DNA of 64,000 bases from the NCBI GenBank assembly GCA_002163135.1, contig MAAN01000036.1:62001-126000 (forward strand), given 5' to 3'. Positions 45,036 through 63,205 of this stretch are shown here, piece after piece. A program made the translations under genes and the position numbers. Under the pieces are notes generated by a model that was given only the letters and a program-made list of their open reading frames with translations, made no database searches and had not been told where the DNA came from. Position 1 is the stretch's first letter. Each line of letters starts with the position of its first letter. The DNA is from Alphaproteobacteria bacterium 46_93_T64 (GTDB lineage: Bacteria; Pseudomonadota; Alphaproteobacteria; Sneathiellales; Sneathiellaceae).

Positions 45036-45851
45036 TTACCCAACCACCATCTGTTTGACACTCTCCGCCCCATACGGCTTCCCACTAACCGAATGATGGC
45101 CCAGATCCGCTAGCTCCTTAGCAATAACGCGCAGGTTCCGTCGCTTACCAGTTCTTGGACTTTTGCGGTATAAACGCTTGGCCTCTTTGATCACAATATT
45201 AGGCACGGGTTTGCGGCCTTCACAGCGGCCGGTCTCCATGCGCTTACGTTCGCGGGCTTTGCGCAGCTTCTCACCCAATGACGCTTTCTCAAATTGAGAC
45301 ACCGCGCCGAGTATCTGCCTGACCATGATTGCAGGTGCTTTACTGTCGACTATCCTAAGAACTTTGCTCCCTTCGATCACACGATCCACCTTGTGTTCCA
45401 GTTCAATAACCTTCTCTGTATAACCAAGGAGTGCACCACGAAGTGCTATTGGATCATTGAGGATGTCTTGAGGTTGCGTTACAGGTTGAGCATTGGCGTG
45501 TGATGCCATTTCATTGAAGCGGCGAATGTAGGCCATCTTGAAATCCATAGCCTTCTTCCCCGTGTAGGACATAACAAGAAGACTAAAGCCATCTTGTGTC
45601 ATATCTTCTGAGGACTGCTTTCGGTTCCTCGCATCAACATAGAAAACCTGCCATAACATTGAGTTGAAGGCCGATGTGTCCAGATTTGCGCGGATTACAT
45701 CTCGAATGTCCCTCAGTACATGACGATGTGTCTTGCCAAAGTACGCAGCAACATCCCTGCTATTGGCAAATAGTTCGTTGTTCTTAATGATAACGCGAGG
45801 GTGCTTTGATGTGTCGGCTGCTGTCGATGTGGTGAATGGGAGAGCAACAGC
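45036..45851 (-). pseudogene. Rha-resolvase chimera, start codon lost
   Basis: Open frame of 271 codons. The N-terminal half is Rha-like (HPRVIIKNNELFANSRDVAA, FGKTHRHVLRD, DMTQDGFSLLVMSYTGKKAM), followed by a short helix, then the C-terminal part of a serine resolvase (ILGAVSQFEKASLGEKLRKA, then helix-turn-helix-like ending). The resolvase catalytic N-terminal domain is missing. The N-terminus is homologous to the relic at 25226-25516, but the ATG there is AGG here, and the frame between that position and the Rha domain is shifted. An ATG at 45659 could express only the second part. It is a fused relic rather than an intact gene. Confidence 0.7.
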
Positions 45852-45897: not shown

Positions 45898-46060
45898 AAC
45901 CGCTGACACGAATTTGACACGCAAGCAACCTACGCAGAACGTGTGGGGGAAGTGTGTGGGGTAAACCTGTGGGGAAGCAATTTTTCACTTAGCATTAAGC
46001 CATTGATTTTATTGCAATATTATGGCTAAAAAATCAATGGCGGAGAAGGTGTCCGCCCTA
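45898..46060 (+). repeat. att-like repeat, copy 3, with upstream GTGTGGGG-rich segment
   Basis: Homologous to 25559-25710 over its whole length. The terminal element is CATTGATTTT-N19-AAAATCAATG followed by GGCGGAGAAGGTGTCCGCC, a perfect 6-bp-stem hairpin. It lies on the outer side of the Rha-resolvase chimera, as in the left copy. The interval 46061-46188 has no gene. Confidence 0.6.
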
Positions 46061-46446: not shown

Positions 46447-47394
46447 CTATTTCGGTAAGGCGAGAAATGTTCCGCCATTTCTTTTTGACACTTCTCGCAG
46501 CAATATTGAAAAACGATTTGTCGCTCCGTGTGAAATAAAACCAATGCCATGTATTTTAGCTAGGGGCTTCCCTGTAATCCGATTTGTGTTTCTTTTCTGT
46601 AAATCATCAATGACCAAATCATAATCCGAGCCCGAATAATCATCTCCCAGGATATAAATCGACATGGATATACTCGGTTTCGCATAGCGTTTTAAGGCTA
46701 CTTTTAGCCCCTCTACCGGGCTACTATTGGATGCACTTCCCCAATTTTGGAATGCTTTAAAGATGTTCTTCCTTCGATTGGCTGTATCTGGAATCCATTT
46801 TCCGGCGTAGGCCGATATCAAATGAATGCCGTTATCATTCATGATTTGGAAGCCCTTCACTTTCGGATGGATTGCCAACACGTTCTGCATCTCGTTGCTA
46901 ACTCGAGGCCAAATTGCTTGCATACTTCCGGATGTATCTACAATAAACAGAACGTAATCACTATCAACCGGGATGCCACCAACTTCTTCATCACGCACAG
47001 CATTAGTTGTAGCTGGCCGAATGTTTGCCTTTTTGAGAGCGTCATCAACGAGCTCCAAACCTTCGAGATCATCTTTTGCGGCGTCATCAGCTTTGACCGC
47101 ATTATTCAATTTGTCCCTCAAAATGCTTGTTTTGGTCTTCAACGCGGCCAATTCAGCAAATTTCTTCTCTATACTGTCATTCTGCTCGGTCACAGAAGAG
47201 TTTAAGCCTGCTATAGAGCGCTCTGTCGCAGTCATCTGCGACAAGATGTTCCGTGCATCCTCAATGGACGCTGTCGCCACATCTTCGGAGGTTCTCGAAA
47301 TCAATACTAACAAAACAACAGCGCCGAACCCGCAAGAGATCAAATCAAGAAAAGAGAGACTGAATATCTCGAATTGTCGGTTTCTTCTCTTCAC
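46447..47394 (-). CDS. vWA-domain protein 2 with ExbD-like N-terminal membrane anchor
   Basis: 315 aa. The N-terminus is basic (KRRNRQFEIF), then one transmembrane helix beginning SLSFLDLISCGFGAVVLLVL, with a charged Asp at the membrane edge as in ExbD/MotB stator subunits. Next is a coiled-coil stalk (about residues 40-135), then a von Willebrand A domain (about 145-315). The MIDAS Asp-x-Ser-x-Ser is DTSGS. The Thr of the second motif is Ser-Pro (NSSPVEGL), and the third Asp is in YILGDDYSG. It overlaps vWA protein 1 by ATGA and is paralogous to it. Probably anchored in the inner membrane with the vWA domain in the periplasm. Confidence 0.82.
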   Translation of the reverse strand: MKRRNRQFEIFSLSFLDLISCGFGAVVLLVLISRTSEDVATASIEDARNILSQMTATERSIAGLNSSVTEQNDSIEKKFAELAALKTKTSILRDKLNNAVKADDAAKDDLEGLELVDDALKKANIRPATTNAVRDEEVGGIPVDSDYVLFIVDTSGSMQAIWPRVSNEMQNVLAIHPKVKGFQIMNDNGIHLISAYAGKWIPDTANRRKNIFKAFQNWGSASNSSPVEGLKVALKRYAKPSISMSIYILGDDYSGSDYDLVIDDLQKRNTNRITGKPLAKIHGIGFISHGATNRFSILLREVSKRNGGTFLALPK

Positions 47395-48461
47395 GGCCAG
47401 CTCACCGCAGGACTAATGAGCAGTCCCCCTGTGGTATAGGTCCATCCCCAGAATTCAGGAGCGGCTTCCGGATCACCCTCCAACGGTAGCAAGATAATAT
47501 TCACTGGTTGCCCACCTCGCGGCCCGCTTTCCTGAACAGATTGACGGAACAATTTCACACGGCATTCACCAGATATTTTACTCGACGTCCCAATCAGCGA
47601 TGAACAACTCGAAAACGGATTTAGACTTCGGTAATTGGATGTGCCGGCTGTCGGTAATCCATCGGTCACAATGTAGTAATTGGTGGGTGCAGGAGATAAC
47701 TTTTTGGCTGATTGAAGGGCATTTTGAAGGTTTGTTGCATTCTCTGGCACGAGAGTGTCCAAACTTGCGAAGACTTTTGAGATGGCTCCAGTGTCAGCCC
47801 CTTGGAACCATCCATTAGGTCCAACTGATGTTGTCTTGTTGTTAAATCCAATCACTACCGCTTTTGATTGTTTCGGAATTCGGTTTGATAACCACCGTGC
47901 AATACGAACAGTTCGTTGCCACTTAGGCCCTTTTTTCTTTTCCGCATCGGTCCCAGATTTACGGAGAATGATATTTATGAGTTTTTCGTCAGTCATCGAG
48001 GCGCTCATATCAATGAGGAACACGATCCGCTTTCCTTCAACTTTCAGCCCCAACAAATAATTTTCTTCACCGACATTCTTATCTTCAATAACATCCTGCG
48101 TTTTTGCAATCGGTGTTTTTTCGATTTTATCTTTTAGTCCTTCAACCTCAGCTTTCTTGTTCGCAGTACTTTGACTAACATCCATAATCTGCTGATCGAC
48201 TTGGCTCAACTGGCTATTGAGTGAGCTTGCTTGACTGTTCAAGTTCGCTTTTTCCTGTGTTTTTTTATCTAGCGTAGTTTGAAGCTGTTCTTCCTGCCTC
48301 TGTAATTCCTCCAAATCCGCCTGTAATGCCTCAAGATCCACAGGAACCTCTTCCGGCTGTACTTTAAGCAAGATCAAGACAAGGATCACAGCTCCCAATC
48401 CGCAGGACATGATGTCGAGGAATGCGAGGTTAAACCCTTCTGTTTGACGCTGGCGTCTCAG
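47391..48461 (-). CDS. vWA-domain protein 1 with ExbD-like N-terminal anchor, CTG start
   Basis: 356 aa if read from CTG 48461. An ATG exists only at 48410, which would cut off the positively charged N-terminus and half the anchor. The CTG overlaps the stop of the ExbB-like gene (CTGA, cf. the ATGA of the next pair), and AGGTG lies about 7 nt upstream. The start region LRRQRQTEGFNLAFLD aligns with KRRNRQFEIFSLSFLD of its paralogue. After the anchor (ExbD-like Asp in FLDIMSCG) and a Gln/Leu-rich coiled coil (about 40-115), the vWA domain has a complete MIDAS: DMSAS, Thr in ATNLQNAL and Asp in VTDGLP. Confidence 0.8.
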   Translation of the reverse strand: MRRQRQTEGFNLAFLDIMSCGLGAVILVLILLKVQPEEVPVDLEALQADLEELQRQEEQLQTTLDKKTQEKANLNSQASSLNSQLSQVDQQIMDVSQSTANKKAEVEGLKDKIEKTPIAKTQDVIEDKNVGEENYLLGLKVEGKRIVFLIDMSASMTDEKLINIILRKSGTDAEKKKGPKWQRTVRIARWLSNRIPKQSKAVVIGFNNKTTSVGPNGWFQGADTGAISKVFASLDTLVPENATNLQNALQSAKKLSPAPTNYYIVTDGLPTAGTSNYRSLNPFSSCSSLIGTSSKISGECRVKLFRQSVQESGPRGGQPVNIILLPLEGDPEAAPEFWGWTYTTGGLLISPAVSWP

Positions 48462-49225
48462 AGATCACCTAATTTACTTATCCGGTTCAACAAGAACTTC
48501 TCGCAATAGGCTTGGGTATCTACAATCTGGTTGTCCTGAAGCCTTTGAAGCTGATGCAATAAAAACATCAATAGAATGCTAATTACCAAAGCAACCAATG
48601 TTGAATTAAAGGCAACACCCAGGCTATTAGTCATCCCCGAGATATCGCCCGCCAAGGCCTGATCCGCTTGAGAAAGAGCGGCACCAATACCACGGACTGT
48701 TCCGATAAAGCCGATGGAAGGGATCGCCCAAATTAGGTAGCGGATCATTGAGTTTCCTGCCTCTTGGCGCAATGCTAAGGCGTCAACACTAGTCTCAATA
48801 GCATCTGAAGTATTTTGAACATCATCGGTTATGAGATATCGCCGTATGCTTGAAGTTAAAGTCTGAATAAGTGGAGAAGATCTAATTTTCACAGGAAGAT
48901 TTTCGATTTTGGAAAGAATGCTGCTCAAGCCCTCCTCTTCTGCTCCACTAGTATCCAGTAAATCCACGTCATACAGATACCCATCTTTGACGATATTGAA
49001 ACACCGGTCACCAATTAGAAAAATTCCCCACAACATCAAAATGAAGCAAATTTCTTGCTCCGCATCTTTCAAGATGATGATGAGATCCCGTGGTGCAGAT
49101 GTTCCTGCTTGTTTTGACGCTTCCAGAATATGTTCAGCTTCAGGCCAAATATAACCGACATAAATCAAGTGAATAGCGAGAATGGAGAGGATTAGTATCC
49201 CCAAGCTTTTTGCCATATGTTTCAT
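48458..49225 (-). CDS. MotA/TolQ/ExbB-family proton channel protein
   Basis: 255 aa inner-membrane protein. One N-terminal transmembrane segment (LGILILSILAIHLIYVGYIW), one near residues 57-75, then a cytoplasmic region, and two long helices in the C-terminal half: NSMIRYLIWAIPSIGFIGTVRGIGAAL and MTNSLGVAFNSTLVALVISILLMFLL. These are the ExbB/MotA-type channel signatures. It is the gene before the two vWA genes and after the 46-aa peptide. It should form a pentamer that uses the proton-motive force to drive the anchored partner subunits. Confidence 0.88.
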   Translation of the reverse strand: MKHMAKSLGILILSILAIHLIYVGYIWPEAEHILEASKQAGTSAPRDLIIILKDAEQEICFILMLWGIFLIGDRCFNIVKDGYLYDVDLLDTSGAEEEGLSSILSKIENLPVKIRSSPLIQTLTSSIRRYLITDDVQNTSDAIETSVDALALRQEAGNSMIRYLIWAIPSIGFIGTVRGIGAALSQADQALAGDISGMTNSLGVAFNSTLVALVISILLMFLLHQLQRLQDNQIVDTQAYCEKFLLNRISKLGDL

Positions 49226-49366
49226 TTAGATATCCACGGGGAATGATACAGGAGAATTCAGATTGATTTTACTGCCCGTCTGAGCCACTGCATATTGAAG
49301 AGCAAAAGTAGCGATAGCCAATCCCAGCATAATTCCAATCCATTTTTTCAACTTATTTATTTTCAT
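49226..49366 (-). CDS. 46-residue membrane micropeptide between FGE-like and ExbB-like genes
   Basis: Starts at ATG 49366 with GGGGAGG about 8 nt upstream, and its TAA is followed directly by the ATG of the ExbB-like gene. It has a basic N-terminus (KINKLKKW), one hydrophobic segment (IGIMLGLAIATFALQYAVA) and a short polar tail (TGSKINLNSPVSFPVDI). This is the form of an uncleaved single-span protein or a secreted peptide. The precise fit into the operon and the strong ribosome-binding site argue that it is real. Confidence 0.75.
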   Translation of the reverse strand: MKINKLKKWIGIMLGLAIATFALQYAVAQTGSKINLNSPVSFPVDI

Positions 49367-49380
49367 CGAAGCCTCCCCTC

Positions 49381-51375
49381 TTACAAATAACGAGCAACAC
49401 GGAAGCCTACGTGCTTGCTGCCCTTATTACCAGCTTGGCGGAACGCTGGCCTAATCTCAGTCAAGTTCCCAGAGGACCAATTAGCCCCTTTGATGACATG
49501 TTTATTGCCAAATCGATCTCCAAGTGGATCCTTTAAAATAGTAGATTTACTCGGCGGTACTAAAGAGTAGAAATCATGGGTCCACTCACTCAAATTCCCG
49601 AACAAATCATATAACCCGGCTTTATCTTTGCCAAAACTACCGACAGGAGCAATTTTTACAAATCCATCGGTATAATTCGGAACGTAGAAACGAGTGGTGC
49701 CGTTTGCTGTCTCATCTGCAATATTTCCTGCATCCGCAGGAATAATAGATTTATCACCCCATGGAAATTTGGTTTGCCTGTTTCGACCAGCTTTTCTCGC
49801 AAGCCACTCCCATTCCGCTTCACTCGGCAGACGATACCCATTTGCACCAACTACAAACGACTTCAGTTTCCCGTTTACGAGTTTATAAAACTGTGACAGC
49901 CCTTCATTTTCACTCATCCAATTGCAAAACGTGACAGCGTCTAGCCAAGAAACATTGGATGCAGGTTGAGTTTTGGATCCACCGTTTGCTCCCTTTTTGA
50001 ACAGTGCAAACTGATGTTCTGTAATCTCTTTTTCTCCGGCATAAAAATGCCGAGAAAACTCAACTTTTCGAATGAATTCATTCGCCCGCTGTCCCTTTTC
50101 ATACCGAGGCGCACCAAGAGTGATTTTCTTTGGCTTAAACAAGAGCATCTGTCCGCCGACAGAATTCTGATAACTGTTTTTTGCTTCAGATCTCCGAGCG
50201 GATTGCACCGTTTTCAGTGAAACATTTATCGCAAGTGAGGTTTTACCGGATGGTTTGATTTGTTTTTGGACTGCACGATAACCAGTTGCTCTAAAATCTA
50301 CTTTGTGAGTGATCGCAGGTAATCTTAACGTCAGCGGAGTGTTCCCCACTGGCTGGTCATTCACAAACACTGCAGATGACGGTGAAGAACGTAAAGTAAT
50401 CTCACCAATTTCAGCCTTTAACTTGAAAGATATCTTTTGCATCTGACCCGGCTTGGCCTTTATTTTTTTCTCAGACGAAAAGTATCCCGCTTTCTCATAT
50501 CGAAGGTAATAGGTTTTGTTCGCTAAAATAGATTGCTTGGCTCCAGGCCTGATCACTTTACCGCTTAACGTAAGCCGCCCACCCTGCGGGCTCACAGATG
50601 CCGCTGTAAAGGATTGCAGCAATTTCAATTTGTATGATCGTTGAATGTCAGCATTGCGATTGGTTATCGCGATTTTCTCACGAATGGTTTCATAACCATT
50701 TTTTCGAATTGAAACATCATAAAGCCCACCAACGAGTAACTTCGATATCGGATCAGCGCCTTGTTTGTCGCTATTGATAAACAACACTGCATCATGTGGC
50801 ATTCGATTAATGGTCAAACGCCCTTGAACCGGAATAAATTCAAGCACTTTTTCAACAGTTTCACCACGACCGAGGTCGATATCAAAACTCTGTGGCTCAT
50901 AGTATTTATGTGTCGCCGAAATCCGGTAATGACCCGCAGGTAGCGCAACGTCAAGAATGTCAGAGATAGCAACAGATTGATCGTTAATAAACCAAATAAT
51001 ATCTGATGAAGAGATTACTGTCTTTAGCTTCAATGTCGCCGGAAGTTCTGTCAGCTGTATCTCAAGATGCTCACCTTCGATATCTGGAGAAATATGGATA
51101 AGTTCCGTTTCAAATCCCACATTTGAAATCACGACCTCAGGATTCCGCGTGAAAGAGAAAAGTGTTCCATTCATGAAGAGAGCGAAACCGCTCGTCACTT
51201 CAAACGTTGCAGTTTTCGATATTTCGTTCGGTGTTACCCTTACACTCGTACCTTTTAGGAACACCGCGAATGCACCAACGAATACAACAACCGTCACTAT
51301 AAGTGTGACGAGAGATAAATAAAACCGCTTTTGCTGAGCCGCTGCGTTTGAAATGTCTTGATTAAACTGGTTCAT
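49381..51375 (-). CDS. PEGA-repeat protein with C-terminal SUMF1/FGE-like domain, non-catalytic
   Basis: 664 aa. N-terminal membrane anchor (about residues 19-42, LSLVTLIVTVVVFVGAFAVFL), then several PEGA-type beta repeats (about 50-385; LTINRMPHDAVLFINSD, ITLRSSPSSAVFVNDQPVG). The C-terminal domain is SUMF1/FGE-like (about 410-664): NVSWLDAVTFCNWMSENEGL, YRLPSEAEWEWLARKAG, GLYDLFGNLSEWT. The two active-site Cys of true FGE, expected after the GGSW-like strand, are absent (KGANWSSGNLTEIRPAFR), so it probably binds rather than converts. Overlaps the upstream gene by 14 bp. Confidence 0.82.
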   Translation of the reverse strand: MNQFNQDISNAAAQQKRFYLSLVTLIVTVVVFVGAFAVFLKGTSVRVTPNEISKTATFEVTSGFALFMNGTLFSFTRNPEVVISNVGFETELIHISPDIEGEHLEIQLTELPATLKLKTVISSSDIIWFINDQSVAISDILDVALPAGHYRISATHKYYEPQSFDIDLGRGETVEKVLEFIPVQGRLTINRMPHDAVLFINSDKQGADPISKLLVGGLYDVSIRKNGYETIREKIAITNRNADIQRSYKLKLLQSFTAASVSPQGGRLTLSGKVIRPGAKQSILANKTYYLRYEKAGYFSSEKKIKAKPGQMQKISFKLKAEIGEITLRSSPSSAVFVNDQPVGNTPLTLRLPAITHKVDFRATGYRAVQKQIKPSGKTSLAINVSLKTVQSARRSEAKNSYQNSVGGQMLLFKPKKITLGAPRYEKGQRANEFIRKVEFSRHFYAGEKEITEHQFALFKKGANGGSKTQPASNVSWLDAVTFCNWMSENEGLSQFYKLVNGKLKSFVVGANGYRLPSEAEWEWLARKAGRNRQTKFPWGDKSIIPADAGNIADETANGTTRFYVPNYTDGFVKIAPVGSFGKDKAGLYDLFGNLSEWTHDFYSLVPPSKSTILKDPLGDRFGNKHVIKGANWSSGNLTEIRPAFRQAGNKGSKHVGFRVARYL

Positions 51376-52852
51376 CAGAAATAACTTTTACCTGTATTGC
51401 CTTATCCGTTGTTTTGATTTGGATCGTTACAATTTTTGCTTTGAAACCCTCTCTTCTACCTTCAAACAAATAGATGCCGGGTTTAAGTTCTATTTGATAT
51501 TTTAGTATTTTCCCAACTTGGCCAACTCCGCGCACAAAAATATGTGTGAGATTATCAGAAACAACTGTGACCTGAACGGGTTTATTACGAAGTGTTATTT
51601 GTTCAGTAAGAGTCGACAGTTGCTTATTTAGTGAGGGGCTGAGCGCTCCATATAAATCGGCATCATTGATAGCTTTTTGGGCTGCTCTAGAAATTTCGGG
51701 AGATGACAACCGGTTTGGGGCATCAAGATATTCAGAAATCAAAGCTTGATGGACAATAATTTTGGTCGACATATCTAACCCGCGAAGAACGTCACCATCT
51801 GACGGATCCAAAGCAGCTGCTTTTTCAAATGCAGCATGAGCAATTTTCCACTGATCAGCCTTGATGGCGTTCTCTGCTTTTTGACTAAAACCCGTAATCG
51901 CAATTTTCATTTTTAGATCGGTCAACTTACTTTCAAGCGACCGGATTTCTGATCGCAAGGGATAAATATTCCTAGCACGCAACAAAGCCTTTTTAAGATC
52001 TGGAAAATTCTCCTGTGACGCCGCCAACAAACCCGAAGAAACAGCTTGCTCGAATTCCCGTTCAGTCAATATCATTTCAATTTCAGAAACTCTGGCCTCA
52101 TACTCTAAGCGAGTAGGATCTTGAATAAGTATTTCCTGTAATAACTGCTTTTCTTTCTGCAGATTATTTTCGATATTTGCAACCTTAGCGGCTTCCTTCA
52201 AATCAAGTAATTTGGGTAATTTTGAGATCCTTTTCTGAAGTGCTCTCGATTCCTCATCGTCACCTTTAAGGGTTAAGGCTCTGCTGATAGCTAACCTAGC
52301 ATCCTCATATTGGTCGGCCTCATAGGCTGTTCTTGCAGCAATAAACTGTTCAGAAAATACTTGCTCGAACTCTGTTACAAAGTTGCTGGAATTCACTAAT
52401 AATTCTTCCAAGTTTGTAATGGCGTTTTTTATATTGCCTGTGGCGATTTCATTAATGGCCGCTTCTTTCAAAGAAGTCATAGATGACGGTGCCTTCTCAT
52501 TCCAAGCTCTGAAACCATCATTGGTGACGAAAGTTTCAAACTCGACCTCGTATCGTCCAAGAAGTTCCACGGCTATCTTGCGTAACTTAGTATCATCAAC
52601 TTTGTCGGCGGACTGTGAAACCACTTTTGGAGATGGCGACCGAACTGGCAACTCAACGACCTTTGGCCTCTTTTTTAAAACAGTCTGTTTGGAAATAAGG
52701 ATAGTGTTTTCTGGCTTTGAAATAAGCCAACTGTTTCCAGCCAACACGAAAGCAAGAGCACCGCCCATGAGAACAATAAGACCGACCAGCGACATCACTA
52801 GAAAATTTTGTTGTCTTCCCCGTGCAGCCTCAGCTAATTTTTTATCCAACAT
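51362..52852 (-). CDS. Membrane-anchored helical-repeat protein with C-terminal PEGA-like domain
   Basis: 496 aa. One N-terminal transmembrane segment (about residues 18-42, FLVMSLVGLIVLMGGALAFVL), a Pro/Ser/Lys-rich linker, and about 300 residues of alpha-helical, TPR-like repeats. Examples are AAINEIATGNIKNAITNLEE, QYEDARLAISRALTLKGDD and DQWKIAHAAFEKAAALDPSD. It ends in a beta domain resembling PEGA (KYQIELKPGIYLFEGRREGFKAKI). Its N-terminal layout matches that of the FGE-like protein. It probably forms a periplasmic scaffold with the vWA proteins. Confidence 0.78.
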   Translation of the reverse strand: MLDKKLAEAARGRQQNFLVMSLVGLIVLMGGALAFVLAGNSWLISKPENTILISKQTVLKKRPKVVELPVRSPSPKVVSQSADKVDDTKLRKIAVELLGRYEVEFETFVTNDGFRAWNEKAPSSMTSLKEAAINEIATGNIKNAITNLEELLVNSSNFVTEFEQVFSEQFIAARTAYEADQYEDARLAISRALTLKGDDEESRALQKRISKLPKLLDLKEAAKVANIENNLQKEKQLLQEILIQDPTRLEYEARVSEIEMILTEREFEQAVSSGLLAASQENFPDLKKALLRARNIYPLRSEIRSLESKLTDLKMKIAITGFSQKAENAIKADQWKIAHAAFEKAAALDPSDGDVLRGLDMSTKIIVHQALISEYLDAPNRLSSPEISRAAQKAINDADLYGALSPSLNKQLSTLTEQITLRNKPVQVTVVSDNLTHIFVRGVGQVGKILKYQIELKPGIYLFEGRREGFKAKIVTIQIKTTDKAIQVKVISDEPV

Positions 52853-52862
52853 TTTTTATACT

Positions 52863-54083
52863 TTAGAGCTGTTTCAACGGTGTTTTTTCTTGCTCGTAAA
52901 TCTCTTTTAGAAAGGCACGCCATTCCGCAAATTGTTTTACAGCATCTCCTGTTATTTCCTTGGTCTTATCTTCAAATTCGATAACTCGTGGGCCAAGATC
53001 AATGTCAATTGACTCACCAAGTTCTTCCAACGTTTCACGATGGAACTCTGCTTCTTTGCTTGATTTAAAACTGCTGGCAATCAATGCGGCCCCACCTACA
53101 CCTGCGGCAACAGTCCCCAAATCTGTCCCAATATTGCTGCCATTCCCAGAACCTCCGGATGCAGCTAAACCAATCATAAGCGCTACAGCCAACACACCTA
53201 AGACAGCCTTTCCTGCTTGGGCATACTTTGCTGCCCGCATGGCTTTTACTTCTTCCATGCTTTGCTCTTGCCATGCAACGTAACTCTCGGACATTTTAGC
53301 ATTAAATTCTTCATAGTGACTTTGCATATTATCGATATAAAGTTGATCGCGAATACGAACGGCTCGGATCCGTTTTAACATTGGATCATTGTCGCTAGGT
53401 AGACTGTTCAATTGAAAGCTTCCATCTTTTTCCGTGAGATGCTCTGCAAACGCGTCTTCAGAAAAATGCGCCGCAAATCTCATTTCTGTCAGTGATTGTA
53501 AAAGTGCCAGATCTGTATTGCTCTGACCTTTCAACAATTCGACAAGATCAGCAGCGGCCTCTTCAAAAACTGGTTGATATGGATCTTTATCTTTATTTCT
53601 TATATTCTTATAAAACTTTTCATGGACTTCGTGATCATAGTTTTCATTATACAAACGTTTCCCAGTGATATCCAAAACCTCGATATCTATTTCGACTTCT
53701 TCGCCGTTGGATTCGACTATTTTGCCAATAACATACAGATCTCCAGTGGCATTGGCATCGGGTGTCACCCTAACAGCACCAAATCGTCCGGTTTTTTCGA
53801 TTTCTTCCTTAAGTTTTAAAGCAAAACGATTTGCCTCAGCTCTTCGAAGCTCAGGCCAAACCATTTCTTCTTCTTGTTCTTTATCTGTTGCGGGGATACC
53901 GGGATCAAACACGGGAACAACAATATCCAGTTTGACCTGTGAAGTATCTAACTCCTTCTGAATTACTTGCGCAACTTGAGAGGAAAATTTGGGCCCCACC
54001 CTTGTTGATTGGCCTGGAGTAACACAGCTGGTTAAGAAAAAACTCACGCAGACAATCCATACCAGGGATTTTTTAAATATCAT
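52863..54083 (-). CDS. Lipoprotein with CsgG/LpoB-like N-terminal domain, novel C-terminal region
   Basis: 406 aa. The signal peptide ends in a lipobox (FFLTSC, Cys at residue 20). The first half (about 25-190) has alternating strands and helices: VKLDIVVPVFDPGIPATD, GDLYVIGKIVESNGEEVEIDIEVLD. This is like outer-membrane-associated penicillin-binding-protein activators and curli secretion lipoproteins, but the match is structural by eye. The second half is helical with a hydrophobic Ala/Gly-rich stretch (about 295-345, VLGVLAVALMIGLAASGG) that could insert in a membrane. It is the second gene of the operon. Confidence 0.65.
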   Translation of the reverse strand: MIFKKSLVWIVCVSFFLTSCVTPGQSTRVGPKFSSQVAQVIQKELDTSQVKLDIVVPVFDPGIPATDKEQEEEMVWPELRRAEANRFALKLKEEIEKTGRFGAVRVTPDANATGDLYVIGKIVESNGEEVEIDIEVLDITGKRLYNENYDHEVHEKFYKNIRNKDKDPYQPVFEEAAADLVELLKGQSNTDLALLQSLTEMRFAAHFSEDAFAEHLTEKDGSFQLNSLPSDNDPMLKRIRAVRIRDQLYIDNMQSHYEEFNAKMSESYVAWQEQSMEEVKAMRAAKYAQAGKAVLGVLAVALMIGLAASGGSGNGSNIGTDLGTVAAGVGGAALIASSFKSSKEAEFHRETLEELGESIDIDLGPRVIEFEDKTKEITGDAVKQFAEWRAFLKEIYEQEKTPLKQL

Positions 54084-54108
54084 TTTTTATTCTCCTGAGG
54101 GATGTCGT

Positions 54109-54669
54109 CTAATGTTGTTTAAGAGGAAGGCCTTTATACTTTCGATACTCATCCCAAAGGCGTTCTTTTTTGGCGGGATCAGTTTCGTTAATGGCAGCTT
54201 GCCGAATTTGCGCTTGTAAAACGCTATCGTTATCGGCTTTTGGAATATCTTCAGGAAGTTTTCCATTTGATTGCGGTGGTCGCGAAGCCGATGCAGTGTC
54301 TGCAGAACCACTCGCTTCCGTATTCCCAGCAGTTACAGTATTTGCAGGTGATGTCGCCTCAGTACCGGACACGTCTGATGCCGCCGACGAAGATGTTGCT
54401 CCTCCGCTGCTATTAGAACTGGCAGCAGAAGAACTATTCACAGACGTAACGCAACTATCGTACCTGTTCAGACTATTATTCAGCGCACGGTCCATTGCCG
54501 CTATTTTCTCCTGATGCGTAAGGCTTTCATCATCGGCATAATTTACAGAGTTATCCACGCAGTCATCGGCTCCCTTTTTGCCACCGCTATCGGCAAACGA
54601 ATTCACAGGCATGATAATTGCCAAACCGAGGCAAATAATCTTAAGTAAACTATGAAAACGGTAAATCAT
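54109..54669 (-). CDS. Secreted Ser/Ala-rich low-complexity protein
   Basis: 186 aa. It has a signal peptide (LLKIICLGLAIIMPVNSFA). Two conserved-looking Cys (DDCVDNS and DSCVTSV) flank a short helix. After these is a low-complexity region rich in Ser, Ala, Thr and Gly (about residues 85-140), followed by a charged C-terminal helix (DPAKKERLWDEYRKY). It is the first gene of the leftward operon, 128 bp from the divergent ankyrin gene, so that gap should hold the promoter. Function unknown, but it is probably a periplasmic or exported subunit. Confidence 0.65.
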   Translation of the reverse strand: MIYRFHSLLKIICLGLAIIMPVNSFADSGGKKGADDCVDNSVNYADDESLTHQEKIAAMDRALNNSLNRYDSCVTSVNSSSAASSNSSGGATSSSAASDVSGTEATSPANTVTAGNTEASGSADTASASRPPQSNGKLPEDIPKADNDSVLQAQIRQAAINETDPAKKERLWDEYRKYKGLPLKQH

Positions 54670-54797
54670 GTAACACCTAAATTAAGAATTATACATACTG
54701 TAAAATCGCTAAGGTTATTATCTTAAACATATCTGCTCCTTGTCAACCAAATAGGCACGATCAAATTTCCGCCACAAATCCTTATTAGTCTGTATAT
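54670..54797. promoter_or_regulatory. Divergent promoter region of the envelope system and the ankyrin gene
   Basis: A 128-bp AT-rich gap between the two divergent first starts (54669 on the minus strand, 54798 on the plus strand). It is the only place upstream of the eight-gene operon with room for its promoter. I do not see a convincing repeat or operator in it. Confidence 0.4.
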
Positions 54798-54851: not shown

Positions 54852-55574
54852 GTGGCGGCTTTAATGATTACCAGTATAGCGACAGTGCAATCAGCTGAAT
54901 ATAAGTCAATCTACAATCCTCTCTACCTTGCTGCCAGTAAGGGCGACATCGTCTTGCTCAAGCGGCTTATAGACCAGAAAATCATTATCAATTCTGTAGT
55001 CATGACCCGTGAAGACAATATGTTTGCAACGAGAACTTGTGAGTTTTACTCCCCTCTTTATCAGACGGCTGCCAACGGGCATCTGGAAGCGACCAAATTA
55101 TTGATTGGGGCCGGAGCTAATCTTGATAAAGGAAAATCCTGCTCTTCAATACTTATACGCGTAGTGGAAACACCCCTAACTATTGCAGCGAGAAACGGTC
55201 AACTGAAAATTGTGGAGTTGTTGCTCGACGCCGGTGCCAAAATCAACATCCGTTCAAGCGGTGGCGCGTTTAGTATCGGTATTAACCGCGCAAAAAACCC
55301 GGTCGATGAAGCTGTAAATGGAGGGTATGCTGACATTGCACGACTGTTACTTTCTCATAGTGGGAAGGCCGACTTCCGCAAATTCATAAAATTAGTCTCC
55401 CTTGGAGACTTATCCTTAGTGCACGCCTTCCTCGCAGCTGGATCTGGCGCCTGCACAACAGATCCTGTTAGTCAACAAAATGCCGGCGAAGTCGCTCTTA
55501 AAAAGGGCTACAAAAAGATTGCCGATTTTCTAAAACCACTTGTCGCGACATGCCCAAATGGTAAAGCGTCTTAG
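54852..55574 (+). CDS. Ankyrin-repeat protein, signal peptide interrupted by an amber codon
   Basis: 240 aa from GTG 54852. Ankyrin repeats are visible: NPLYLAASKGDIVLLKRLID, SPLYQTAANGHLEATKLLIG, TPLTIAARNGQLKIVELLLD, NPVDEAVNGGYADIARLLLS, and a diverged last unit. An in-frame ATG at 54798 would give KKIRPSTLFACIH, then TAG at 54840-54842, then SFLVAALMITSIATVQSA before the repeats. That is a normal signal peptide with a stop in its middle. Without it the protein would lack its full signal and perhaps stay in the cytoplasm. It may be a recent nonsense mutation or a restart. Confidence 0.6.
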   Translation: MAALMITSIATVQSAEYKSIYNPLYLAASKGDIVLLKRLIDQKIIINSVVMTREDNMFATRTCEFYSPLYQTAANGHLEATKLLIGAGANLDKGKSCSSILIRVVETPLTIAARNGQLKIVELLLDAGAKINIRSSGGAFSIGINRAKNPVDEAVNGGYADIARLLLSHSGKADFRKFIKLVSLGDLSLVHAFLAAGSGACTTDPVSQQNAGEVALKKGYKKIADFLKPLVATCPNGKAS

Positions 55575-55825: not shown

Positions 55826-56467
55826 TTACCGATTTACAATGTTTCGCACCGTCGCAGGATGCCAGTCTCCTCCTCTCGCCGTTTGGATGCCTCTAGCGTT
55901 CAATGCTTGGGCAATCCCTCTATAAGTTTTTACCCCCGCGGCCTGTATCTCGTGGATGATAGGGACAACATTGTAGGCAAAGCGGTCGGCATTTCGGGTA
56001 AGCTGAACAACACCTACCTTGGAACCTTTCTCCGGATTAGGCGAACCAAGCTTTACCCCCCTCGCCTTCGCAGCTTGCAGAGCAACCTTTGTGCGTTGTG
56101 AAATCATTTCCCTTTCATGTTCAGCAACCGCCGCCAGAATGTGAATAGTCAGCTTGTTCGCTTCTGGCATGTCACAAGCGACGAAGTCCGCTTTGCTGTC
56201 CATAAGGTTTGCGATGAAGGCAACGTTTCTCGATAGACGGTCCAGTTTCGCAATAACCAAACGAGCTTTACGCTTCTTACAAAGGGCGAGTGCTTTGAGC
56301 AGTTCTGGTCTGTCAGCTTTCTTTCCGGATTCAATCTCTGTGAATTCTTCCAGAGGAACAATATTGCCGATGAAGTCAGACACCGCGTTTTGCTGAGCTT
56401 CCAGACCTAAACCGCTCCTGCCCTGCTTGTCTGTTGATACGCGATAATAGGTTACATATTCGACCAT
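55826..56467 (-). CDS. Serine recombinase (resolvase/invertase family)
   Basis: 213 aa from ATG 56467 with AGAGGTG upstream. The catalytic N-terminal domain has YYRVSTDKQGRSGLGLEAQ with the nucleophilic Ser, and later LVIAKLDRLSRNVAFI and the helix AAVAEHEREMISQRTKVAL. The C-terminal helix-turn-helix is AQALNARGIQTARGGDWHPA followed by TVRN. It is a short type without a zinc domain, like Tn3-type or DNA-invertase enzymes. Its likely substrates are the short repeats at 56500-56538, 57209-57247 and 59303-59328. Confidence 0.88.
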   Translation of the reverse strand: MVEYVTYYRVSTDKQGRSGLGLEAQQNAVSDFIGNIVPLEEFTEIESGKKADRPELLKALALCKKRKARLVIAKLDRLSRNVAFIANLMDSKADFVACDMPEANKLTIHILAAVAEHEREMISQRTKVALQAAKARGVKLGSPNPEKGSKVGVVQLTRNADRFAYNVVPIIHEIQAAGVKTYRGIAQALNARGIQTARGGDWHPATVRNIVNR

Positions 56468-56499
56468 TCTGCACCTCTGTATAAATTGCATACCAACGT

Positions 56500-59498: not shown

Positions 59499-60962
59499 TC
59501 ACACAATACCCTTATTAGAATAGCTCAGCTTTCCCCAATCTCTTTGAACGGGGTTGTATCCTGTTGCAAATGTCATAAATCCGTCTGCGCCGTGGCTGGC
59601 TGCGTCGTGACGAGGGCCGTCTTTAAACACACCCTTACTGTCATTCCATTCTTTCCGGTAATTATCCAAATGGCGGACGCCCTGAGCGCATTTCGTTTCA
59701 TCGAACCAGCAACTTGAAAGATTGCCTCTGGCTGCTTCGATTGCATCCAACTTATCGTCAACGCGCTTTACCACTTCAAAGGTAATGCCGAGCGATTTTG
59801 CAGCCTCAAGCCTGCTGGTGCCTGTTCCTAGCTCTCTGACAGATAGATCATGCGGACCATAATGCTTATCATAGGTATAGCCTCTGTCATTCAGCATATT
59901 TTTGTAGTGGGCAAATCCCTCGCCAGAATTTTCGTAATAATCAATGAAACGGTTTTCCATGCCGACGCGTTGGTGGAACCAGATGGTCATTGAATCATTC
60001 ATCCCCAAGTCCCAGAAAGTATTAACGGCAATACTCGCCTCATAAGGCACTCGGCAAATCTGGTTATTCTTCCGGATCAATGCCATTTGCTTGGCGAAAT
60101 ACGCCCCTTCAATGGATGCCTCGAAAGCCTCATCAGCCGTAGTCGGAAATTCTCGTTTCATGTCGTCGCCTTGCTCTTCAGCTTTACGCTTGTACCAATT
60201 CATTTGCGCTTGCGTTAATTCAAACTGATTTAGATATTTTTGTGTTTCGGTGGGGATGATGGTTTTGACGTCGATGCTATATCGCGGGTCTTGATTCCAA
60301 CTGTAGAAATGAAACTTGAAATCCATACGGGTCATCTCTGCTCCAGTATCATCCATCTGCCGGGCCCGCCTTACGATTTCAAAGAACTCACCGTCCTGTC
60401 CTTCCGCCGTGCTTTCTATCCAACACAATGAGTTCTCATGCAGTGTGTTCAATGCACCAGCTTTGATCTCTCGGGCCTTGTCGGGATATTTAGCCGATAT
60501 CTTGCCGTATTCTGAAATATGCAGAAGCTGATAGGTGCCAGATCGTAAGCTTGTACCAACTCGTATGCTGGACCCGTTGGCAAAAACAAGATGCTTGGCA
60601 CTGTCCGCAGTTGCCGGGTTTACCTCTCGGAATTCTTCATCCATATGCTCGTAGGCGAACTTGATTTTCTTGGTAAAAAAGTCCTCTGCGTCCTCACGAT
60701 TATGGGCAATAATACCAGCCTGGATGTTGTTCATGAACATGCAGCAATCCAGAATATAGATTTGAATAAAAGTGGTGAACCCCAACTGACGGGCTTTAAG
60801 GATCACGTTCTTATCGTGCATGTTGTCCAACAAGTCTTTTTGTGCCCAGTTCAGCTTAAACCGCACTTCCTTGCCCTGTTCATTCAGGATTGTGTAGAGG
60901 TTGTTTAATCGCCACTCTCTGTCCTGGAGTGAGTTATCAGCCGAGGATTTTAGACTGCTCAT
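59499..60962 (-). CDS. Phage terminase large subunit
   Basis: 487 aa. ATPase domain: Walker-A-like KARQLGFTT (about residue 57) and a Walker-B-like LLHISEYGK with catalytic Glu. Nuclease domain: FWDLGMNDSMTIW, YGPHDLSVRE and HDAASHGADGF, the acidic cluster. Its start overlaps the small-subunit gene by 26 bp. No capsid, portal or tail genes follow in the window, so it is a remnant or part of a satellite element. Confidence 0.86.
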   Translation of the reverse strand: MSSLKSSADNSLQDREWRLNNLYTILNEQGKEVRFKLNWAQKDLLDNMHDKNVILKARQLGFTTFIQIYILDCCMFMNNIQAGIIAHNREDAEDFFTKKIKFAYEHMDEEFREVNPATADSAKHLVFANGSSIRVGTSLRSGTYQLLHISEYGKISAKYPDKAREIKAGALNTLHENSLCWIESTAEGQDGEFFEIVRRARQMDDTGAEMTRMDFKFHFYSWNQDPRYSIDVKTIIPTETQKYLNQFELTQAQMNWYKRKAEEQGDDMKREFPTTADEAFEASIEGAYFAKQMALIRKNNQICRVPYEASIAVNTFWDLGMNDSMTIWFHQRVGMENRFIDYYENSGEGFAHYKNMLNDRGYTYDKHYGPHDLSVRELGTGTSRLEAAKSLGITFEVVKRVDDKLDAIEAARGNLSSCWFDETKCAQGVRHLDNYRKEWNDSKGVFKDGPRHDAASHGADGFMTFATGYNPVQRDWGKLSYSNKGIV

Positions 60963-61660: not shown

Positions 61661-63205
61661 TCAGACGTCTACTGATTGCTGTTGAGATAAAACTCGCTTT
61701 CTTAGTGGGCTGACAAGCTTTGCTTTTTGGCCAACTAAGTAAACACCGAAAATGATAATTGCTATCGCGGGCAGACTCTCTATCGAGAGTTTTTCTCCAA
61801 GAATTACGACGCTCCATAGAAGGCCCGCTAAAACGACCGTATAGGCTTTTTGGCTGGCAAATACGGAGCCAGCCGAAGTAACCAGTTTCAACAGTAAGAA
61901 ATATGCCGTTGCATCGGCGAGTGAAAATAATAGTATTGTATAGTGAAACGGGCCGACAGGCTCTGAGGGGAAAACGATCCCACCCTCAAAAAACGATATG
62001 AAGATGAAGATAATAGACGCCAGTACCATAACGTATACTTGCGCATTTAGAGCGCTTGAAAAACTTTTGAAGTAGCTCCCGACCATTAGGTTTTTTATTG
62101 CATAAGCAAGAGGAACAAATACCGCTAACCCAATCCAGAAGATATCGCCAAATGCTTCATTTTGATGAAAATCAGGCAGGAAAATCCAGATACATCCTGC
62201 CAACGCAATCAAAATTCCACTGAGTTTTCGTACTGTTACTGAAGCAAGGCCACTTATCGCTGCGAATATAGCGGCGGCCACAGCTTCAAGTACCATGATG
62301 AGTGACATGGCAATCCCTGAAATGTGACCAGAAACGAAAAGAAGCAAATATATCGGTATAACTGTTCCAACCACACTCCAAACCACAATTTTCCTCATTG
62401 AATCTATAGAAAAATCGAATTCAAATCGGCGATTGAATATGAAACAAGCAATCAGCAAAAAGAGGGTCGTTAACGAAGATGTGAAGAACGCTAAATTTGA
62501 TACAGAATAGTTCGAGGTACTCAGTAGATTGCTCAAAACTGGCCTTAATCCAAAGCAAAGTCCTACTATCAATAGCAAAAATATCCCTTTGAGTGTGACA
62601 ATCTGCTGACGCGAATGTTGAAAACGATTATAGACATCAATCGATTTATTCACAAAAACATATGCTAGATGACCAATTGCGTCTTTTCTTTCCGCAATGT
62701 CGATAATATCCAGTTTTTTTGGATTTAAATCATCTTGGTCGAGATATGCGGCTGCTTTTGCTAAACGATCCAACTGCAGTAAAGTGTCTTTATCTCTGTC
62801 TTGAAGACGTTTTCGCTCTAAGCATGCATCTAACCGCGCTTCCAACAATTCAATATTGAACTCAGTTGGCAAAAAGTCTTCTGCGCCCAATTTTATGGCT
62901 TGAACAATATCACCCATCGCCTCAGATGACGAAATGACGATAACAGGTATATCTCTAAATTGTTTGTCGGATTTCAGATATGTTAATACTTCGAAGCCGC
63001 CCATTACGGGCATATAGATATCCAATAAAATCAAATCAAAACATTGAGATTTGATGACGTCCAATGCTTCGTTTCCATCACCAATGACGGTAACGGTATG
63101 CCCAAGTTGCTTGACTGCCATCGACATTTTCAATCGTTTTGTTTGGCTGTCATCTACAATCAGGATGTGACCGTGCTTAGCAAGTATATTTATCGACACC
63201 GTCAT
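61661..63205 (-). CDS. Receiver domain fused to an EamA/DMT-type membrane transporter
   Basis: 514 aa. The N-terminal REC domain (about residues 12-130) has the acidic pair (ILIVDDS), the phospho-acceptor Asp in LILLDIYMP, Ser for the switch Thr (VIVISSSEAM) and LPTEF where REC domains usually have the conserved Lys (LPKPF). A helical linker (about 130-205) follows, then ten hydrophobic segments of an EamA/DMT-type transporter (about 205-500; SGHISGIAMSLIMVLEAVAAA, LSGILIALAGCIWIFLPDF). It is last in a phosphorelay operon with an Hpt gene and a hybrid-kinase-type receiver. Confidence 0.85.
   Translation of the reverse strand: MTVSINILAKHGHILIVDDSQTKRLKMSMAVKQLGHTVTVIGDGNEALDVIKSQCFDLILLDIYMPVMGGFEVLTYLKSDKQFRDIPVIVISSSEAMGDIVQAIKLGAEDFLPTEFNIELLEARLDACLERKRLQDRDKDTLLQLDRLAKAAAYLDQDDLNPKKLDIIDIAERKDAIGHLAYVFVNKSIDVYNRFQHSRQQIVTLKGIFLLLIVGLCFGLRPVLSNLLSTSNYSVSNLAFFTSSLTTLFLLIACFIFNRRFEFDFSIDSMRKIVVWSVVGTVIPIYLLLFVSGHISGIAMSLIMVLEAVAAAIFAAISGLASVTVRKLSGILIALAGCIWIFLPDFHQNEAFGDIFWIGLAVFVPLAYAIKNLMVGSYFKSFSSALNAQVYVMVLASIIFIFISFFEGGIVFPSEPVGPFHYTILLFSLADATAYFLLLKLVTSAGSVFASQKAYTVVLAGLLWSVVILGEKLSIESLPAIAIIIFGVYLVGQKAKLVSPLRKRVLSQQQSVDV

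Follow-up and report, generated by a model that had tools for sequence, protein, structure and literature searches.

Rotary motors of the 5:2 type form a small set that comprises the flagellar stator, Ton, Tol, the motors of gliding and type IX secretion, and Zorya. In the AglRQS gliding motor of Myxococcus, one TolQ-like protein is combined with two different TolR-like partners. Here we describe an operon of eight open reading frames (ORFs) at 46447-54669, on the minus strand of a 64,000-nucleotide stretch of DNA from Alphaproteobacteria bacterium 46_93_T64 (contig MAAN01000036.1, positions 62,001 to 126,000), which is referred to throughout as the window. In gene order the ORFs encode an exported Ser-rich protein (secSer), a lipoprotein (lipo), an anchored protein with helical repeats and a PEGA-like domain (TPR_PEGA), an anchored protein with PEGA repeats and a domain of the formylglycine-generating enzyme (FGE) fold (PEGA_FGE), a 46-residue peptide (pep46), an ExbB/MotA/TolQ-like channel subunit and two von Willebrand factor A (vWA) proteins, vWA1 and vWA2. 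All eight lie where an earlier reading of this DNA, hereafter the original prediction, had placed a compact minus-strand operon. We conclude that the operon probably encodes an envelope-spanning machine driven by the proton motive force, most likely an energised trans-envelope force transducer.

The closest described systems are vWA proteins encoded beside tolQ-like genes in the absence of tolR or exbD, which were predicted to replace the TolR dimer (Mol Biol Evol 2025, PMC12204202). As described there, such proteins occur in Proteobacteria, mostly in heterologous pairs, and carry a proton-binding Asp; the seed was from Idiomarina. AlphaFold3 models in the same paper dock both Asp helices in the pentamer, inside a ring of Thr residues, and rotation was predicted. 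The locus in the window resembles these pairs, as the paper's main text presents them, in having a TolQ/ExbB-like gene beside vWA genes with no tolR, exbD or motB among the eight genes (Pfam), in the conserved Asp of the N-terminal transmembrane (TM) helix of the vWA proteins, in the absence of the SHLS motif from the vWA alignments on inspection, in having two different vWA genes that belong to separate clades, and in the conserved Thr residues of the ring. It differs from that main text in the PEGA proteins, the FGE domain and the peptide: PEGA, sulfatase, formylglycine, FGE and a peptide go unmentioned there, although the paper's drawing of the gene cluster may include some of these neighbours. 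Literature searches for papers joining ExbB, the PEGA domain and vWA found none, and a broader search on two terms found none among the 25 papers listed of 257.

The original prediction spoke of a candidate undescribed machine. Measured against the published text, this stands for the operon as a whole and falls for the motor formed by TolQ and a heterologous vWA pair. Five of the eight parts, including the tiny exported peptide, seem to be undescribed, and the motor core was already predicted in 2025. What is new is the whole conserved machine, most of all its micropeptide, and with it the apparently non-catalytic FGE/PEGA scaffold and the TolB-N-like lipoprotein; the idea of the motor is not. 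The AglRQS motor shares the plan of one TolQ-like channel with two different partners, but those partners are TolR-like, and vWA, PEGA and FGE proteins are not part of it.

In the window and in 34 relatives from Alpha-, Gamma- and Zetaproteobacteria, the seven large genes run in one order on a single strand, over 8.2-12.7 kb, and because they recur in order in so many relatives the operon is far above chance. A single scan with the ExbB-like protein yielded 21 loci in Alpha-, Gamma- and Zetaproteobacteria and on one contig labelled Deltaproteobacteria (ExbB identity 42-81%), in which all genes not lost to contig ends are present and the order is unchanged. The count of 34 adds whole-genome matches and leaves out L089, a repeat of L012. 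The sole departures among uncut loci come from one small gammaproteobacterial group (L099, L101 and L102), where the ExbB gene is displaced or was not seen and the lipoprotein was undetected in two. A failure of the genes to be conserved together had been named beforehand as one of the outcomes that would overturn the original prediction; instead, the seven large genes stay in order and the peptide gene sits between the FGE and ExbB genes in nearly all relatives. The carriers include many marine and sediment bacteria. Conservation of this set makes the published motor prediction a defined eight-part machine.

The ExbB-like subunit (48458..49225) matches PF01618 above the cut-off (E = 2.1e-14) and has four TM helices by eye, without a long cytoplasmic tail. 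As in other members of the 5:2 MotA/TolQ/ExbB superfamily, the MotA_ExbB domain carries Thr residues in TM3 and TM4: in an alignment with the TolQ, ExbB and MotA proteins of the source genome, T176 and T209 fall on the channel Thr residues, the invariant columns include G175-T176 and A205/T209, and the two Thr are 33 residues apart, just as in TolQ. Both Thr residues are present in 47/47 ExbB-like sequences (43 by motif, 4 by inspection). The assignment as an ExbB/MotA-like channel is thereby upheld. Elsewhere in the same genome, at L006 (G000:C33), another distant MotA/ExbB-type gene (399 aa) adjoins the gene of a long coiled-coil membrane protein.

The two vWA proteins share one architecture. 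vWA1 (47391..48461) consists of a basic N-terminus, a transpore-type helix with D16, a coiled coil of ~80 aa and a vWA domain with a metal ion-dependent adhesion site (MIDAS); D16, D151, S153, S155, T243 and D267 are invariant in its alignment, and Pfam places it in PF13519 (E = 1.4e-6). vWA2 (46447..47394) has D17 in the helix and the MIDAS sequence DTSGSM. Pfam alone does not call vWA2 (E = 0.09), so that of the two vWA proteins originally proposed one is established by Pfam and the other is assigned by its profile likeness to vWA1 and its DxSxS motif. In that profile comparison (hhalign probability 99.6, E = 5.8e-24) the homology extends over the anchor, the coiled coil and a portion of the vWA domain, and a tree separates vWA1 and vWA2 into two clades. 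The DxSxS motif is present in both and the MIDAS is intact in both. The helix motif FLD or FID occurs in 48/48 vWA1 sequences and FLD in 44/45 vWA2 sequences, the motif not being found in the vWA2 of L100, whose frame is extended; it matches PFVDVM of TolR in the source genome. The ExbD-like helix with an Asp that had been proposed for both proteins is thus borne out by the alignments. Judged from these alignments, the residues of a proton-driven 5:2 motor are retained, namely the channel Thr pair and one Asp for each vWA helix. Searches of the PDB with the ExbB and vWA2 profiles gave no match; those with the vWA1 profile gave mostly coiled-coil noise, and the PADLOC and NCBIfam matches of vWA1 were dismissed as noise of the same kind.

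At the gene junctions, TPR_PEGA and PEGA_FGE overlap by 14 nt, the peptide and ExbB genes abut, and ExbB/vWA1 and vWA1/vWA2 overlap by 4 nt each; for these four of the seven junctions the earlier statement that genes overlap by 4-14 bp or abut is right. At the remaining three the genes are separated by 25, 10 and 14 nt. The frame of vWA1 opens at CTG 48461, giving a protein of 356 aa that retains the whole Asp helix; the 339-aa ORF of the automatic list is too short, its ATG falling inside the membrane helix. The CTGA at this position shares 4 nt with the ExbB stop, and because an in-frame TGA sits just 5' of CTG 48461, no standard start is open to vWA1. In ten relatives (L008-L011, L014, L017, L018, L020-L022) there is likewise no ATG, GTG or TTG ahead of the vWA1 helix, and CTG is the sole candidate start, with ATT possible in one. 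Such a recurrent weak start may set a low copy number of the rotor relative to the ring.

The vWA genes are paired in nearly all genomes with a match in surveys of the genus, the phylum and the Gammaproteobacteria. Two interchangeable homodimeric motors (ExbB with two vWA1, and ExbB with two vWA2) could be formed from these genes in place of one mixed rotor, as MotB, ExbD and TolR are homodimers. We consider this arrangement unlikely, as the single ExbB gene, the obligate and ordered vWA pair and the small number of genomes with a single vWA gene fit a mixed pair better.

Of the proteins beyond the motor, secSer (54109..54669) is exported, and a Ser/Gly-rich linker joins its short N-terminal, Cys-containing segment to a conserved C-terminal segment of ~45 aa with the pattern DIPxAxND..QIRxAAxxExDP...LWxEYRxYK. 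Both ends are conserved in the alignment, C73, D141, W172, Y175 and R176 are invariant, and the gene is the first of the eight in every complete relative with conserved order. The second protein, lipo (52863..54083), is predicted to be a lipoprotein of the outer membrane, with an LTSC lipobox recognised by eye. In a model with a pLDDT of 71.5, residues 49-187 adopt a fold of the TolB-N/PelC/CsgG/FlgT type, followed by a long helical region. Foldseek relates it to TolB and PelC with a probability of 1.00 but an E value of only 2e-3, and structural alignment (VIA) gave Z scores of 11.9 for FlgT and 11.7 for PelC (rmsd, root mean square deviation, 2.1).

The operon recalls Tol-Pal, which is a trans-envelope motor driven by the proton motive force with a TolB-N fold on the outer-membrane side. 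It differs from it in the absence of TolA, TolR, Pal and the TolB propeller, lipo resembling the TolB N-terminal fold alone, and the source genome has a separate ybgC-tolQ-tolR-tolA locus.

TPR_PEGA (51362..52852) combines an inner-membrane anchor helix, a disordered linker, a superhelix of helical repeats and a C-terminal PEGA-like beta domain (model pLDDT 87.5; helix 2-40, helices 87-422, strands 426-489). It matches Pfam TPR_2 at 8.5e-6, slightly below the cut-off, its best Foldseek rows are TPR proteins, and the Pfam scan gave no PEGA match. PEGA_FGE (49381..51375) has an anchor helix, PEGA repeats (PF08308, 1.8e-23) and a C-terminal domain of the FGE fold (PF03781, 6.3e-33). The label FGE-like was apt for the fold and not for the chemistry: the two catalytic Cys that active FGE carries near its C-terminus are replaced, as none of the aligned relatives has a Cys where the active site of human FGE aligns, and C484 is the only widely conserved Cys of the protein. 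The domain thus appears to hold a pseudo-active site and to be non-catalytic.

The nearest NCBIfam family of PEGA_FGE is GldK (4e-19; its 69.1 bits fall short of the cut-off, 350), and PorK chains of known structure score 3e-21 to 5e-21 against the profile. In Bacteroidota, gliding and type IX secretion use a moving track of which GldK is a part and by which outer-membrane proteins are dragged along (PMC12635249). With this precedent, the operon could be a machine of the type IX or gliding sort, serving secretion or surface motility, in which the ExbB/vWA motors drive a GldK-like FGE track or ring that carries surface proteins or polysaccharide; the GldKLMN system likewise joins a proton motor to a periplasmic protein of the FGE fold, and the fold of lipo is common to the export lipoproteins PelC and CsgG. 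Several observations make this quite doubtful. Human FGE is a slightly better match than PorK to the same profile, PEGA_FGE is no GldK by cut-off, and the protein is anchored in the inner membrane rather than being a lipoprotein. GldL and GldM are not the relatives that were found, Sov/SprA and GldN are absent from the eight genes, and the operon contains no outer-membrane pore or cargo gene. The GldN model had no match in the genome, but it matched no control genome either.

The smallest gene, pep46 (49226..49366), had been described as a 46-aa membrane peptide. The ORF is in place, but it reads as a signal-peptide-like N-terminus (cleavage site of the AVA-Q type, by eye) followed by a short mature tail. 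This tail is the conserved portion, with the near-invariant C-terminus LNSPVSFPVDI-COOH; the C-terminus is FPxDI or FPxDL in 19/19 aligned sequences. The peptide was too short for some BLAST matches and was located by reading the gap between the FGE and ExbB genes. No candidate was found at L096 or L101. The unchanging tail offers a direct handle on the receptor of the peptide.

In the mechanism that we propose, a ring of five ExbB-like subunits would enclose a pair of transpore helices, to which vWA1 and vWA2 most likely contribute one each, and the passage of protons between D16/D17 and T176/T209 of the ring would turn the helix pair against the ring. The coiled coils would place the vWA domains in the periplasm. 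There, metal-dependent contacts through the MIDAS may hold and let go of a scaffold that consists of both PEGA proteins and the putatively non-catalytic FGE domain. This scaffold would act on, or be held by, outer-membrane lipoproteins of the TolB-N/PelC type that probably form a ring, and pep46 may dock through its free C-terminus FPVDI on one of the parts as a plug, cap or ligand. Such a machine would most likely do mechanical work at the outer membrane, either its upkeep or the assembly or movement of a surface component. The fully specified form of this model, with one proton-driven ring, an obligate mixed vWA rotor pair working against the PEGA/FGE scaffold and lipoprotein ring, and regulation or sealing by the FPVDI micropeptide, is offered tentatively, as something short of an even bet. 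If it is correct, the paired-rotor branch tipped with vWA domains is a case of one motor being adapted to a new mechanical task at the outer membrane.

Several points weigh against the interpretation as an envelope-spanning machine. No experiment on any member of the operon was found in the literature searched, and most genomes of the window's own genus do without the operon, which is dispensable. Two homodimeric motors are possible in place of a rotor with one copy of each vWA protein, the contacts of the PEGA/FGE proteins, the lipoprotein and the peptide are guesses from gene order and fold, and proteins with a TolB-N-like fold need not form a ring.

Searching for vWA2 identified it in 9/25 genomes of the window's genus, 16/398 genomes sampled across the phylum and 32/369 Gammaproteobacteria. 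The lipoprotein and vWA2 co-occur in 7/7 lipoprotein-positive genomes of one zetaproteobacterial family and are concordant in 15/16 genomes of the window's genus; the one discordant case is a contig fragment from a genome that is 70% complete. Gene neighbourhoods of the operon change in nearly every genome of the genus. Patchiness, varied neighbourhoods and flanking resolvase-like genes hint at recent transfer of a mobile cassette, which was rejected on the basis of a five-protein tree. Because the genus forms one fully supported clade in this tree, loss plus rearrangement is preferred, and we consider the operon to be old and mostly vertically inherited, with many losses and rearrangements. 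Spread by plasmids was likewise rejected, the ExbB-like protein having no match among 72,556 plasmids at 1e-20.

The same results bear on whether the operon is an anti-phage system or envelope-stress sensor of the Zorya kind that fires through its proton channel, a reading that we regard as highly improbable. ZorA is also an ExbB/MotA relative, the pairing of such a channel with a single-TM partner is common to ZorAB and the operon, and the ExbB-like subunit is a weak PADLOC match to ZorA2 (6e-5). Unlike in Zorya, the partners are vWA rather than OmpA-like proteins: Pfam and PADLOC, the latter run on the eight proteins and two upstream neighbours, found no OmpA domain of ZorB, no ZorC, ZorD or ZorE, no nuclease, no helicase and no long ZorA tail, so that the lack of helicase and nuclease effectors noted in the original prediction is confirmed. 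Moreover, the neighbourhoods vary within the genus, those that can be recognised consist of metabolic or transport genes, and the tree is largely vertical.

Many gammaproteobacterial loci (L027, L075, L076, L092, L094-L100, L103-L106) encode an extra protein between ExbB and vWA1; at its C-terminus is an FHA domain (4.7e-13), and its N-terminal part is possibly, on a very weak match, Hsp70/actin-like. Some extended loci add a TPR protein with a sub-threshold TonB_C match, two small lipoproteins and an M48 peptidase. In the extended forms most peptides end in FP(V/A/I/T)DI or YPVDI. The TonB_C match would suit a Ton-like energiser of outer-membrane uptake, as would a haem cluster of a TonB-dependent receptor, an SbmA-type ABC (ATP-binding cassette) protein and ChaN beside the operon in two same-genus neighbourhoods, on opposite sides (L067 154-4489 and L070 13559-18574). 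This is very unlikely to be its role, since the haem cluster is missing from the window and the other neighbourhoods, the TonB_C matches are below cut-off and the operon includes no receptor gene.

Around the operon, the best candidate promoter of a scan (sigma-70 type, TTGACA-18-GATAAT, 11/12) lies at 54717..54746 on the minus strand, 48 bp upstream of secSer; it is a weak candidate, the regional total being not above shuffles. An equally weak candidate terminator 3' of vWA2 (46039..46057, minus strand) has a 6-bp stem with 5 GC pairs and a T-tail, and the count of such structures around it is close to the shuffle mean. An Rfam search of the operon region found no RNA. A conserved ninth gene was considered and rejected, as antisense ORFs dominated the flank comparison; a tyrosyl-tRNA-synthetase-like gene (by eye) recurs near some loci. 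In the window the operon is flanked by genes for a Rha-domain protein whose C-terminus, judged by eye, resembles a resolvase (45036-45659) and for a serine recombinase (55826-56491), and it is adjoined by a divergent gene for a secreted ankyrin-repeat protein (54852-55574) that is not kept at the loci of relatives. A 487-aa ORF at 59499-60962 has the look of a terminase large subunit by eye, without a Pfam match, and may belong to a prophage remnant near the operon. Finally, at 61661-63205 the receiver domain of a response regulator is, unusually, fused to EamA-type transporter domains, with Hpt and receiver proteins encoded beside it.

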